NCBI RefSeq assembly: GCF_007830055.1
Contig: NZ_VLLE01000006.1
Span: 310,001-374,000 of the forward strand
DNA length: 64,000 nucleotides
DNA from: Lacibacter cauensis
Lineage (GTDB): Bacteria; Bacteroidota; Bacteroidia; Chitinophagales; Chitinophagaceae
Reading direction: 5' to 3'
Under the pieces are notes generated by a model. It searched no databases, was not told the origin of the DNA, and saw only the letters and a list, made by a program, of their open reading frames with translations. Of this stretch, positions 2,093-5,900 are shown in pieces; position 1 is the stretch's first letter; the number at the start of each line of letters is the position of its first letter. The position numbers and the translations under genes were made by a program.

Positions 2093-2704
2093 TTATTTCC
2101 AGTAATCATACTGCATATACTTCGCTGTTTCATCTGCTACTTCTTTACCAAACAATTTTCCAACACTATACAAACTCATATCAATACCTGCAGAAATACC
2201 GGCTGAAGTAATAACAGTTCCGTTATCAACAAAACGTATATTTTCTTTTACATGAATCTGATTGGAGATTTCTCTCAATCCATCCATTGCTTTGAAATGT
2301 GTGGTTGCTTCCAGGCCCTCTAACAAGCCGGCTTTGCCTAAGATGAGTGAGCCGGTGCAAACACTCAATACCAGCTTCGCATGTGCGGCCTGTTCTTTTA
2401 CCCAGTTGAGTACAATGGGATTGGTCATTTCTCTTCGACTGCCAAAGGGCGTTCCATCTGCACGTATTCCTCCGCCACCTGGAATGAGAATGATATCAGC
2501 TTTCGGTGCTGTTTCCAATGTATATGTTGGCTTAATAGTCAAATGATTTCTTGCTTCGATAGCTTCAAACTGTGCAACAGTGAATACATCAAAAGGTGCT
2601 TCAGGCAGTGTGCGTAAACCAGCCACACTGAATACTTCAAACGGACCAGCGAAATCCAACACCTCTACTTCATTGAACAGAAAAATGGCGACTTTGTATT
2701 GCAT
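2093..2704 (-). CDS. DJ-1/PfpI family protein (class I glutamine amidotransferase-like)
   Basis: The 203-residue protein shows the DJ-1/PfpI fold: an N-terminal beta strand YKVAIFLF, the acidic EVLDFAGPFEVF motif (14-25), a GGGG turn near 76-79, and the nucleophile-elbow cysteine C116 in SVCTGSLILGKAGLL. This arrangement resembles the isonitrile hydratase / AraC-N-terminal subgroup, where the cysteine is catalytic. The first ATG at 2704 fits the fold. It is followed by the metzincin-like gene in the same direction. The exact reaction (isonitrile hydratase, deglycase or other) cannot be read from sequence. Confidence 0.85.
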   Translation of the reverse strand: MQYKVAIFLFNEVEVLDFAGPFEVFSVAGLRTLPEAPFDVFTVAQFEAIEARNHLTIKPTYTLETAPKADIILIPGGGGIRADGTPFGSRREMTNPIVLNWVKEQAAHAKLVLSVCTGSLILGKAGLLEGLEATTHFKAMDGLREISNQIHVKENIRFVDNGTVITSAGISAGIDMSLYSVGKLFGKEVADETAKYMQYDYWK

Positions 2705-2738: not shown

Positions 2739-2769
2739 CACGCCCCGTCTGACGCCCTCGTCTGACGGA
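2739..2769 (+). repeat. REP-like hairpin, left copy of 31-bp inverted repeat
   Basis: The 31-bp sequence folds at 2745-2768 into CCGTC-T-GACG, loop CCCT, CGTC-T-GACGG: nine base pairs interrupted by one T-T mismatch. The unit CGTCTGACG occurs twice. The GC-rich hairpin with an internal mismatch is the known shape of REP elements. It is identical in reverse complement to 3453-3483. Confidence 0.85.
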
Positions 2770-3369
2770 CTAATAATCATCTAATAAATAATCCGGCATT
2801 CTGCCCATAACTAATTCCGGAAAACGCTTTTCATCATATTCACAAACCAGCCGTACTATTTCTTTTGAACAAAAATCATGTTCCCTTAATCCTGCGTAGA
2901 ATCGAAATGCAGAAAACTCCCATTCAGCTAAATCTTTCACCAAACCATGGCGCAAAGGGTTTTGCAGAATGTAATAAAAGCAATTCAGCAAATAATCTTC
3001 CTCTTTAAAACGCAATCGTTCATCACTCAAATCTTTCGCTTTTGTTTTAGGCCGAAACAGAGCACCGCTCCGATTATATTTATCATTAAAATAATGGCTG
3101 TATCCGCTAATTAATTTTCTGACCCCGTTTGTGAGTGGATCGAACCGAAGATTACCTGATTTTACAAATTCACCCGAATCAAATTTAGCTACCAACATTA
3201 TATGAAAATGATTGGGCAGCAAACACCAGCTTACGATATCTGCATACGGAAGAATATAGTCTCGAATAAAACTGATAAACTTCTTATAATCATCACGGGT
3301 ATGAAATAATTGCTGCTTATTATTTCCTTGGTTGAATACATGATAGATATGATCAGGTTCAAATTTCAT
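2770..3369 (-). CDS. REP-associated tyrosine transposase (RAYT, Y1_Tnp/IS200-like)
   Basis: The 199-residue protein belongs to the Y1 transposase (HUH nuclease) family, REP-associated branch. It opens MKFEPDHIYHVFNQGNN and has the metal-binding HUH motif in PNHFHIML (HFH at 54-56). The candidate catalytic tyrosines are Y90/Y93 in SGYSHYFNDKYNRSGALF, and the C-terminal signature is YYILQNPLRHGLV...WEFSAF. These enzymes nick single-stranded DNA at REP hairpins. A longer frame begins at 3393 inside a palindromic terminator, so I prefer the ATG at 3369, which matches family starts. The gene fills the space between the two inverted REP-like repeats. It appears intact, so the module may be active or recently active. 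Confidence 0.88.
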   Translation of the reverse strand: MKFEPDHIYHVFNQGNNKQQLFHTRDDYKKFISFIRDYILPYADIVSWCLLPNHFHIMLVAKFDSGEFVKSGNLRFDPLTNGVRKLISGYSHYFNDKYNRSGALFRPKTKAKDLSDERLRFKEEDYLLNCFYYILQNPLRHGLVKDLAEWEFSAFRFYAGLREHDFCSKEIVRLVCEYDEKRFPELVMGRMPDYLLDDY

Positions 3370-3376
3370 AAGTAAT

Positions 3377-3407
3377 AAAAAAAGGTCTGACAATATTGTC
3401 AGACCTT
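3377..3407 (-). terminator. perfect 26-bp palindrome with T-run just before the RAYT start
   Basis: Positions 3382-3407 form a loopless perfect palindrome (arms AAGGTCTGACAAT). On the minus strand it is followed by a run of T (3381-3377), giving an intrinsic terminator that would stop read-through from the fadN-like gene eight bases before the RAYT ATG. The arms contain the heptamer GTCTGAC that also builds the terminal REP hairpins, so it may additionally be a transposase binding site. Confidence 0.7.
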
Positions 3408-3452
3408 AAAAATAGTTTTCTGTTTTGAAATTTAAAATACAGCTCGCTGTAA

Positions 3453-3483
3453 TCCGTCAGACGAGGGCGTCAGACGGGGCGTG
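3453..3483 (-). repeat. REP-like hairpin, right copy of 31-bp inverted repeat
   Basis: This is the exact reverse complement of 2739-2769. It folds at 3454-3477 into CCGTC-A-GACG, loop AGGG, CGTC-A-GACGG. Identity stops at both sides of the 31 bases, which marks the element ends. Confidence 0.85.
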
Positions 3484-3493
3484 TTCCTTTTCG

Positions 3494-5872
3494 CTAGTTG
3501 CGAACCGGCTTACCTCCCTTCAACACGCTTTGGATGCGCTCCAGCGATTTCTTTTCGCCGCAAAGTGATAAGAAGGCTTCACGTTCCAGATCAAGTAAGT
3601 ATTGTTCGGTTACCAAAGTCGGTTCGCTTAAATCGCCACCGCACATAACGTATGCGAGTTTCTTTGCCACAACTGAATCATGTTCTGTAGCATAGCCTGC
3701 TGTACGCATGCCGTTGATACCTGCAAGCAATGCACCCAATGCCGAACGACCTAACACTTTTACATCGCTGCGTTGTGTGGGGGCGACATAACCGCTATCG
3801 AAAATTTCAATCACTGATTTTTTTGCTTCTGCAATTCTGCGTCCCTGATTCATCACTACTTCATCTAATCCTTTTCTAAACACGCCCATTTCAAAACCTT
3901 CTTTGGCTGAGGTGGCCACTTTTGCGGTGGCAATGGATAAGAATCGATTCTTCAATGTGATGGTTTCCGGTTCATCTTCGTGCATTTCATCGGCCGCACG
4001 CAACACAAATTCTTTGGTGCCACCACCACCGGGTATCAAACCAACACCTAATTCAACCAAGCCAATATACGTTTCGGCAGCTGCACAAACTTTATCGCTG
4101 TGCAAACTCAACTCACATGCACCACCTAATGTTAAACCATGTGGCGCAACTACAACCGGTATGGATGAATAACGTGCACGCATCATGGTATTCTGGAACA
4201 TACGAATGGCCATATCCAGTTCATCGTACTCCTGTTCAATGGCCAACATAAAAATCATACCCACATTTGCACCGGCGCTGAACTGTGCTGCATCATTCGC
4301 TATAACCAATCCTTTGTATTTGTCTTCTGCTAATGCAATCGACTTTTGAATACCTTCCAACACTTCTCCACCAATGCTGCCCATCTTTGTATTCCATTCC
4401 AAACCCAACACATCATCACCTAAATGATAAGTTCTGCAGCTTGCATTTTTCCAAACGGTCTGGTTCTCGAAATTCTTCATCACAATAAATGCATCGCCAC
4501 CAGGAATGACTTTGTACGATTTACTTGCAGGATCGTAACAAACACGTTTGTTGTTTTCTACTTTGTAAAAACTTGTTGCACCACTGGCGATCATCTCATC
4601 AACCCATGCAGCTACTTTGTAACCGGCAGCTTTCATGGCATCCACTGTCTTTGCAACGCCTAACACATCCCAGCTTTCAAATGCACCGATCTCCCAACCA
4701 AAGCCCGCCATCATTGCATCATCTACACGATACAACTCATCACTGATCTCCGGAATACGATGCGAGATATACGAGAACAAACTATAATGAAACTGTTTGT
4801 AAAACTCACCTGCTTTATCGCTGCCGCTGCACAACATTTTCAATCTCGTTTTGAGATCATCAATGGGCTTTGCAGCATCCACACTGCCAAACTTTGGTTT
4901 TACACGTGGGGCATATTCCATTGTTTGCAGGTTGAGCGTGAGAATTTCTTTTTCTCCGCCCGCACCTTTACTCTTCTTAAAAAATCCTTGTCCGGTTTTA
5001 TCGCCCAGCCAGTTATTCTCAATCATTTTATTTAACCAGGATGGTATTGCAAAAATTTCTTTCGCTTCATCGTCGGGACAATTCTCTGCAACACCTTTCG
5101 CAACTTTCACCAATGTATCCAAACCCACCACATCACCAGTGCGGAACGTAGCGGATTTTGGTCGGCCAATGATCGGACCGGATAATGCATCGATCTCATC
5201 AACTGTCAACTTCATCTTGTCCATTAAATTCATAATAGCCATCATCCCAAACACACCAATACGATTGGCAATAAACGCAGGTGTGTCTTTACACAACACT
5301 GTTGTTTTACCAAGGTAGAGATCACCGTAATTCATTAAGAAATCAACAACGGAAGGATCAGTATATTTTGTCGGAATAATTTCGAGCAAACGTAAATAGC
5401 GTGGCGGATTAAAAAAGTGTGTACCGCTGAAATGCTTTTTGAAATCATCGCTTCTTCCTTCTGCCATCATGCTGATGGGAATACCGGACGTATTGGAAGT
5501 AATGAGCGTACCGGGCTTGCGGAATTTTTCTACCTGTTCGAAAATGAGTTGTTTGATATCGAGACGTTCAACCACTACTTCAATCACCCAATCGCAGGAA
5601 GCAATGTCCTTCATATTATCGGTGAAGTTGCCCGTGGTAATTTTCTTTACCACCTCTTTTGTATATACCGGCGATGGATTGCTTTTAATGGCTGCAGCCA
5701 ATGCATCATTCACCAGTTTATTTCGTTCAGCTGGCTTGGTGCTTTCTTCAAAACCCTTCGGCACCATATCGAGCAACAAGGTTTGCAAACCAATTCCTGC
5801 AAAGTGGCAGGCAATGCGGCTACCCATTACACCGCTACCTAAAACGGCAACTTTTTTAATTGTTCTTTTCAT
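3494..5872 (-). CDS. fadN: 3-hydroxyacyl-CoA dehydrogenase / enoyl-CoA hydratase, FadN-like
   Basis: A bifunctional fatty-acid beta-oxidation enzyme of 792 residues. The N-terminal half is a 3-hydroxyacyl-CoA dehydrogenase: NAD-binding GSGVMG (12-17), SNTSG (126-130), HFFNPP (152-157). The C-terminal half is a crotonase domain with oxyanion segment FSAGAN (531-536), E587 in GGACE and E607 in GLVELGVGLIPGGGGT, the two expected catalytic glutamates. Dehydrogenase first and hydratase last is the FadN (YusL) order, the reverse of FadB. A GTG at 5881 is in frame, but the ATG at 5872 (MKRTIKKVAVLGSG) fits better. No thiolase or acyl-CoA dehydrogenase gene lies beside it. Instead it is flanked by two repeat-bounded modules. 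Confidence 0.9.
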   Translation of the reverse strand: MKRTIKKVAVLGSGVMGSRIACHFAGIGLQTLLLDMVPKGFEESTKPAERNKLVNDALAAAIKSNPSPVYTKEVVKKITTGNFTDNMKDIASCDWVIEVVVERLDIKQLIFEQVEKFRKPGTLITSNTSGIPISMMAEGRSDDFKKHFSGTHFFNPPRYLRLLEIIPTKYTDPSVVDFLMNYGDLYLGKTTVLCKDTPAFIANRIGVFGMMAIMNLMDKMKLTVDEIDALSGPIIGRPKSATFRTGDVVGLDTLVKVAKGVAENCPDDEAKEIFAIPSWLNKMIENNWLGDKTGQGFFKKSKGAGGEKEILTLNLQTMEYAPRVKPKFGSVDAAKPIDDLKTRLKMLCSGSDKAGEFYKQFHYSLFSYISHRIPEISDELYRVDDAMMAGFGWEIGAFESWDVLGVAKTVDAMKAAGYKVAAWVDEMIASGATSFYKVENNKRVCYDPASKSYKVIPGGDAFIVMKNFENQTVWKNASCRTYHLGDDVLGLEWNTKMGSIGGEVLEGIQKSIALAEDKYKGLVIANDAAQFSAGANVGMIFMLAIEQEYDELDMAIRMFQNTMMRARYSSIPVVVAPHGLTLGGACELSLHSDKVCAAAETYIGLVELGVGLIPGGGGTKEFVLRAADEMHEDEPETITLKNRFLSIATAKVATSAKEGFEMGVFRKGLDEVVMNQGRRIAEAKKSVIEIFDSGYVAPTQRSDVKVLGRSALGALLAGINGMRTAGYATEHDSVVAKKLAYVMCGGDLSEPTLVTEQYLLDLEREAFLSLCGEKKSLERIQSVLKGGKPVRN

Positions 5873-5876
5873 ATGT

Positions 5877-5900
5877 CTCACTGATTTCGCAGATTTACAC
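5877..5900 (-). repeat. left 24-bp imperfect inverted repeat of the GxxExxY module
   Basis: Read on the minus strand this is GTGTAAATCTGCGAAATC followed by AGTGAG. It matches 6304-6327 on the plus strand at 20 of 24 positions. It lies 4 bp from the fadN-like ATG, inside that gene's leader. The core is a near-tandem TAAATCWGYG / WAATCWGTGA with about 10-bp period. Confidence 0.6.

Follow-up and report, generated by a model that had tools for sequence, protein, structure and literature searches.

The unit at positions 2739–3483 of the window, the 64,000-nucleotide stretch of Lacibacter cauensis DNA analysed here, is a real RAYT/REP pair. We read it, with a probability of roughly 0.85, as part of a resident RAYT/REP system (REPtron) of Chitinophagaceae, in which the REPs are mismatched hairpins of GTC-N-GAC type and the RAYT gene is fixed at one locus.

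The two ends of this 745-bp unit are inverted copies of each other. The left REP (2739–2769, plus strand, outer sequence CACGCC) carries a hairpin at 2745–2768 with a T·T mismatch on the plus strand, and the right REP (3453–3483, minus strand, outer sequence GGCGTG) carries its hairpin at 3454–3477. The 31 bases of 2739–2769 are the exact reverse complement of 3453–3483, the next base differs at both ends, and the looser arms of the unit span 41 nt at 93% complementarity. Each arm folds as CCGTC-T-GACG-CCCT-CGTC-T-GACGG, with –9.8 kcal/mol as single-stranded DNA (z –5.3), and the opposite strand folds with an A·A mismatch at –8.9 kcal/mol (z –3.3); the perfect 31-bp inverted hairpin ends with T-T or A-A mismatches described in an earlier note on this DNA were thus confirmed for both folds. 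The 22-base core occurs twice in the 64-kb window at up to three mismatches, with 0 expected, and an Rfam search of the window returned 0 matches. Outside the unit lie a DJ-1/PfpI family gene (2093–2704, minus strand) and a FadB-like 3-hydroxyacyl-CoA dehydrogenase (3HCDH)/enoyl-CoA hydratase gene (3494–5881, minus strand), whose stop at 3494 places the unit against a metabolic gene, as had been said.

The RAYT gene between the REPs (2770–3369, minus strand) is an open frame running from an ATG at 3369 to a stop codon 1 nt from the left hairpin, and encodes 199 amino acids with HFH at residues 54–56 and Tyr133 followed by QNPLRHG. H54, H56 and Y133, corresponding to the HUH motif and the single catalytic tyrosine, are invariant across 23 aligned sequences. 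Profile matches are below the models' own cut-offs (NCBIfam REP_Tyr_transpos, E 6.3e-11, 42.3 bits against a cut-off of 80; Pfam Y1_Tnp, 13.8 bits against 23), and a phmmer comparison with PDB 4er8 gives E 2.7e-4 with the tyrosine aligned. An AlphaFold model built from the 23 sequences has a mean pLDDT of 90.9, replacing an earlier model from 4 sequences (pLDDT 49); its best PDB match is 4er8, the E. coli TnpA_REP bound to a REP hairpin (E 7.8e-8, 19% identity), followed by ISDra2 chains. The open frame and the closeness of the HUH/Y1 model to TnpA_REP support the claim of an intact Y1 transposase of the RAYT group, and from motifs and modelled fold the protein would be a single-strand HUH/Y1 endonuclease. 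An NP(L/V)(R/K)xG motif next to the tyrosine is described as a RAYT hallmark (PMC2817692); the window RAYT has NPLRHG at 137–142, and the RAYTs of all three in-genus relatives, which do not keep the motif, have NAWRHG. A second hallmark described there is a conserved threonine near the N terminus; the 23-sequence alignment shows no invariant threonine near the N terminus.

Upstream of the gene, 12 nt 5′ of the ATG, lies a perfect 26-nt palindrome, AAGGTCTGAC-AATATT-GTCAGACCTT (3382–3407, minus strand), followed by a T run and scored as intrinsic-terminator-like. It contains two paired GTCNGAC half-sites, and all six GTCNGAC words of the window (5.96 expected by chance) fall within this palindrome and the two REPs. 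A palindrome in the same place is found in the RAYT loci of G002 (L036) and G011 (L037), and a scan of 110-nt leaders found no palindrome with a T run at the remaining 15 of 18 RAYT loci. This placement suggests that the palindrome is REP-derived and possibly self-regulating, and such a terminator-like element would probably hold RAYT expression low.

Cognate hairpins are dispersed through the genome. Searching for the 18-base perfect core CGTCNGACG-NNNN-CGTCNGACG, we found 31 copies in the 4.95-Mb genome of the window (G000), along with 21 CCGTCNGACG pairs and 29 copies at up to three mismatches, each against 0 in the reversed control. Most of the 31 stand without a RAYT, which answers the check for solitary genome-wide copies proposed in the earlier note and, together with the flanked gene, supports a RAYT with cognate REPs in Bacteroidota. 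REPs are usually present in more than 100 copies per genome according to PMC2817692, so that 31 is fewer. Perfect cores are present in 10 of 14 genus genomes (the others with copies being G001 with 4, G002 with 4, G003 with 7, G004 with 15, G007 with 3, G009 with 29, G011 with 33, G012 with 22 and G013 with 8) and number 0 in G005, G006, G008 and G010, with the reversed control at 0 throughout. From nine core-bearing genomes we collected 170 instances at up to two core mismatches; the three perfect cores of G007 and 3 of the 15 from G004, either unfetched or lying too close to the end of a contig, are not among them. Several local peculiarities were seen along the way: REP half-units recurring in tandem every 13 nt (as CGTCAGACGGGGG) at L128 (G009 C111:5916–5963), degenerate 7-nt-period runs (GAAGTAC, GTGAGTG and similar) near some REPs (L028 1432, L017 2164, L109 1078), these low-complexity runs being a weak signal, and a RAYT-like stretch with internal stop codons in the window's own genome (L009/L010, G000:C1:527654–528137).

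At the level of sequence, the REP signal consists of two GTC-N-GAC half-sites that form a hairpin in which both N stay unpaired. Among 150 perfect-core copies, which are not independent of one another, 145 have no Watson-Crick pairing between the two N, a position at which independent columns would give 38.6 pairs. The combinations on one strand are CT 71, AA 62, TC 4, AT 3, AG 2, TA 2, CA 2, AC 2, GA 1 and TT 1; the unpaired N are thus mostly A·A/T·T or C·T/A·G, depending on the strand, and the four CA/AC copies would read as G·T wobbles on the opposite strand. Complementary outer pairs, as C-G, T-A or A-T, occur in 107 of 150 copies (70.9 expected); the core search fixed all other positions, leaving the N, the loop and the outer pair as the informative ones. 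A classical GT[AG]G head, the canonical element of GTAG REPs, within 8 nt 5′ of the hairpin foot was found in 0 of 155 copies on one strand and 2 of 155 on the other. No GTAG-like guide was found; the side that has a conserved flank reads GGCGTG, which we only suspect to be a guide; GGCGT occurs there in 21 of 29 copies in G009 and 3 of 33 in G000. A literature search for GTCTGACG with palindrome and transposase gave nothing related by title. Judging from this conservation, the RAYT would recognise hairpins in which two GTC-N-GAC half-sites keep an internal mismatch.

The RAYT gene itself occupies a shared locus. We sought the 3HCDH gene in 12 genus relatives (G013 left out) and found it in 11, three of which (G002, G009 and G011) have a related RAYT beside it; DJ-1/PfpI lies on the other side of the RAYT in G009 and G011, and G002 was matched on the 3HCDH side. 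Hairpins of the same kind surround all three RAYTs, the one at the RAYT 3′ side in G009 being truncated with an intact hairpin next to it. The fetched 3HCDH flank of the other eight relatives (1500 nt; ~430 nt for G005) contains no RAYT. Behind the RAYT unit of G011 we observed a 43-nt piece (L071 695–737) that resembles the 3HCDH 3′ end at 81% and, after it, one more REP pair in inverted orientation, indicating that this locus has been rearranged. In the three same-site relatives, the RAYT is 46–50% identical to that of the window and 3HCDH 85–94%, and dN is 0.43–0.46 for the RAYT versus 0.05–0.12 for 3HCDH; the RAYTs of G002 and G011 are 86% alike. The gene therefore stays at one locus between two inverted hairpins while its protein changes much faster than its neighbours, and the RAYT/REP system of the 3HCDH locus is real and long-resident. 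Fast RAYT evolution at a fixed locus has been reported in Proteobacteria (PMC2817692).

The same divergence could be explained differently, if the window RAYT had come from elsewhere and displaced the resident RAYT at this site together with its REP type. The RAYT trees place G000 outside (G009,(G002,G011)), with support 99/93 and 96/93, whereas the 3HCDH tree places it nearer G011 than G009 or G002, and besides the high RAYT dN, dS to G011 is 2.05 for the RAYT versus 0.92 for 3HCDH. However, dS to G002 (1.31 for the RAYT versus 1.16 for 3HCDH) and to G009 (1.25 versus 1.53) is near saturation, so fast protein change alone, known for RAYTs from PMC2817692, could account for the divergence; the species tree also comes from one gene, with a long G000 branch. 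We regard replacement as possible but rather unlikely.

In G000, G009 and G011, REP type goes with the RAYT. The majority type (AA in 21 of 31 copies in G000 and 25 of 29 in G009, CT in 24 of 33 in G011) is the type that flanks the RAYT in each of these genomes, counting the RAYT's own copies; in G002, two of the 4 copies are at the RAYT. The AA/CT ratio is 46/11 in G000 and G009 versus 4/41 in G011 and G012 (Fisher p 7.5e-14, for copies that are not independent and with G012 having no RAYT at the 3HCDH locus). Orthologous sites, defined by one flank at least 60% alike, form 34 groups, of which 16 hold a copy from G000 or G009 as well as one from G011, G012 or G002; in 12 of these the types are unlike and in 4 they match. 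The RAYT's own REPs account for two of the 12, three others contrast TA with AA, AG with CT and GA with CT, and several represent both arms of a single locus. Counted by locus, type differs between the lineages at 8 of 11 shared loci, the RAYT locus included. Between the sisters G011 and G012 the type is the same at 12 of 13 sites, and G000 agrees/differs at 6/2 sites with G004, 2/2 with G001, 3/1 with G003 and 3/2 with G009. Marks in the form of an unusual outer pair are kept while the mismatch differs between species (G..C at L125/L149/L179/L186, T..A at L024/L111/L174), which argues against fresh insertion, and the hairpins may have changed type in place. Tentatively, and with more doubt than confidence, we suggest that after a change in RAYT preference the REPs at fixed sites did not simply decay but were converted where they stood to the new mismatch type, through RAYT-driven REP-to-REP copying or selection for binding at each site; the sites of differing type would also be explained by point mutations arising stepwise under selection.

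The signal extends beyond the genus. A single-protein scan of genome contigs found no RAYT relatives, and an alignment scan found 17 RAYT loci. L228–L230 among them are the RAYT genes of G002, G011 and G009 again and were left out; with the four in-genus RAYTs included, there were 18 for examination. Thirteen of these have mismatched GTC-N-GAC pairs on both flanks within 600 nt; L235 has the signal on one side only, L236 has a paired C·G form with a longer loop, and L238, L242 and L244 have no GTC-N-GAC pairs within 600 nt. In a midpoint-rooted tree of the 18 with five other RAYTs, nine form a Chitinophagales clade (support 100/99) made up of the four in-genus RAYTs, L231 (Terrimonas), L232 (a Ferruginibacter bin) and L233, L234 and L237 (Chitinophagales bins). 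Mismatched GTC-N-GAC pairs flank 9/9 of this clade, nearly always as T·T/A·A outside G002 and G011, bearing out the expectation that the unit would help define the REP signal of a Bacteroidota branch. The signal is also present at 4/4 RAYTs of Lacihabitans and a Leadbetterella bin, with type A·G/C·T. These RAYTs group elsewhere in the tree, nearer RAYTs without the motif, and the 18 relatives are not one clade excluding such RAYTs; the signal is thus either older than the nine-member clade or arose twice.

Abundance goes with such RAYTs, though with exceptions. We counted GTCNGAC-N3..8-GTCNGAC pairs in 34 genomes, that of L231 not among them. The 14 genomes with a relative have 34, 6, 7, 1, 2, 0, 21, 0, 12, 16, 7, 0, 5 and 2 pairs more than 600 nt from the RAYT, versus 0 in 15 and 3, 2, 29, 1 and 1 in the rest of 20 hand-picked genomes without such a relative, more distant RAYTs being present in two of these 20 (G014, G036); a Mann-Whitney test gives p 0.0006, uncorrected for kinship. 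The reversed control of this loose pattern gave 0 to 23 hits, the highest in a genome with 0 true hits. Several counts weigh against the system as read here: in G061, 8 of 9 pairs flank the RAYT, and G063, G065 and G069 have 0 pairs. Within the genus, G012 (22 REPs) and G004 (15 REPs) have no RAYT at the 3HCDH locus, the best RAYTs of G012, G004, G001 and G013 belong to another branch, and G002 has the RAYT but only 4 REPs. Separately, G026, of the same family, has 29 GTCNGAC pairs, most with a 7-nt loop (e.g. C26:13274–13466), and no RAYT match at E 0.001; these are either orphan REPs or the RAYT was missed. A different RAYT in G004 (L041) lies between two copies of a perfect hairpin, ATAGGTATGCCATACCTAT (1335–1353 and 2106–2124), a candidate REP of the same genus unrelated to the GTC-N-GAC type.

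The placement of the hairpins raises the question of whether they are ordinary terminators or mRNA-stabilising hairpins of the genus, with the RAYT merely lying between two of them. Of 155 copies, 36 fell within an ORF call or at the edge of a locus and were left unplaced; 97 of the 119 placed copies have the GGCGTG side toward a gene's 3′ end, at a median distance of 21 nt, and 80 are in one arrangement between co-directed genes, counts that rest on crude ORF calls and include orthologous copies more than once. This orientation fits insertion bias, a transcript role, or both. A terminator, however, requires neither a fixed mismatch nor GTC-N-GAC, and the same half-sites flank RAYTs in other families, hairpin abundance goes with such RAYTs and hairpin type goes with the RAYT, making this explanation improbable; terminator co-option on top of the RAYT system is possible.

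Presence and absence between species are displayed by the dispersed hairpins and not by the 745-bp unit. The window genome's REP L011 (1502) has no counterpart at the aligned G001 site, and its REP L017 (1502) has none in G011, where the stretch is poorly conserved. Three REP sites were used in the empty-site search; the L016 query matched one flank only and was uninformative. No REP is present at the L014 site in the seven relatives aligned (of eight found), with both flanks matching in G003, G007, G011, G012 and G013 and one in G001 and G004. At the L019 site the REP is decayed in G007 and reduced to a remnant in G003, and G001 (L206) carries a different inverted sequence there, CCGACAGGGTT...CTGTCGG. 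Since the L014 and L019 flanks are 75–91% alike, gain and loss are not always distinguishable. A RAYT search at E 0.001 gave no match in G003 or G007. Such differences are consistent with a RAYT that would spread or renew the hairpins as short non-autonomous intergenic elements.

For the unit itself, the check for an empty site yielded the absent and decayed sites of dispersed REPs just described and no clean empty site among the genus relatives examined. Only 59 nt separate 3HCDH from PfpI in G003 and G007, a gap not matchable by eye to the unit's edges, and G001 has no PfpI near 3HCDH either, so RAYT loss is as likely as absence. The earlier note held that the same site shared by all distant relatives, with none empty, would refute its reading; this applies only in part, since G009, G011 and G002 do share the site and eight relatives lack the unit there. 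Its suggestion of recent insertion fails on those three relatives, G002 on the 3HCDH side, and we rejected a recent whole-unit insertion on finding a related module at the same site in several species. That the unit arrived recently as an autonomous IS200-like insertion sequence, as its exact inverted ends around one intact Y1 gene and the 59-nt gap might suggest, is very improbable, being largely contradicted by the related units in three other species and further by a RAYT gene that is single-copy in the genome (other RAYT matches 31–39% identical) and hairpins that mostly stand without a RAYT. IS200/IS605 elements move as a whole, with several copies or sites; here there is one full unit at a locus common to species.

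In its indirect features, the resident RAYT/REP system resembles the Bacteroidetes REPtrons of TnpA_Y1 subclass 2.6/RAYT group 5, in which RAYTs with atypical hairpins were described earlier (PMC6006769). Shared features in that account are the phylum, flanking atypical structures without GT[AG]G and with copies elsewhere in the genome, a long HUH-to-Tyr distance (77 residues from H56 to Y133 here, median 82 there) and a conserved downstream serine (S153 here); that account gives no consensus for the structures, whereas here they are paired GTC-N-GAC with a kept mismatch. E. coli TnpA_REP, as described in PMC8266576 and PDB 4er8, shares the fold, the HUH motif, the tyrosine and a mismatched zone inside the REP stem, reported there as required for activity. 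Unlike the E. coli GTAG REPs of that study, those here have no GTAG/GTGG head and the mismatch is one N·N pair; the proteins are 19% identical. Syntenic RAYTs with different REP classes, and mixed classes per genome, recall the orthoswitch described in Pseudomonas and Stenotrophomonas (PMC3686654), a model in which old REPs remain and decay, its authors also allowing partial replacement by new variants; here, by contrast, the shared sites themselves differ in type. CGTC-tagged REPs (PMC3733652) are likewise short CGTC-containing palindromes, also reported from Bacteroidetes, but are described with CGTC as an unpaired tag and no transposase gene flanked, while here CGTC is in the stem and a RAYT is flanked. 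IS200/IS605 insertion sequences share the Y1 HUH fold and hairpin ends, and differ from this system in its unit fixed at one locus, inverted ends and dispersed solitary hairpins.

Over known REPtrons, the analysis adds a spelled-out signal that extends in part beyond the genus and goes with the RAYT. The REP signal of a Bacteroidota RAYT clade can now be searched for by a plain definition, where that account in the broad survey speaks only of atypical secondary structures (PMC6006769). With two discrete mismatch types tracking the RAYT, RAYT-REP specificity becomes directly testable by protein and hairpin swaps in vitro, and the shared sites that differ in type offer a natural test of REP population renewal.
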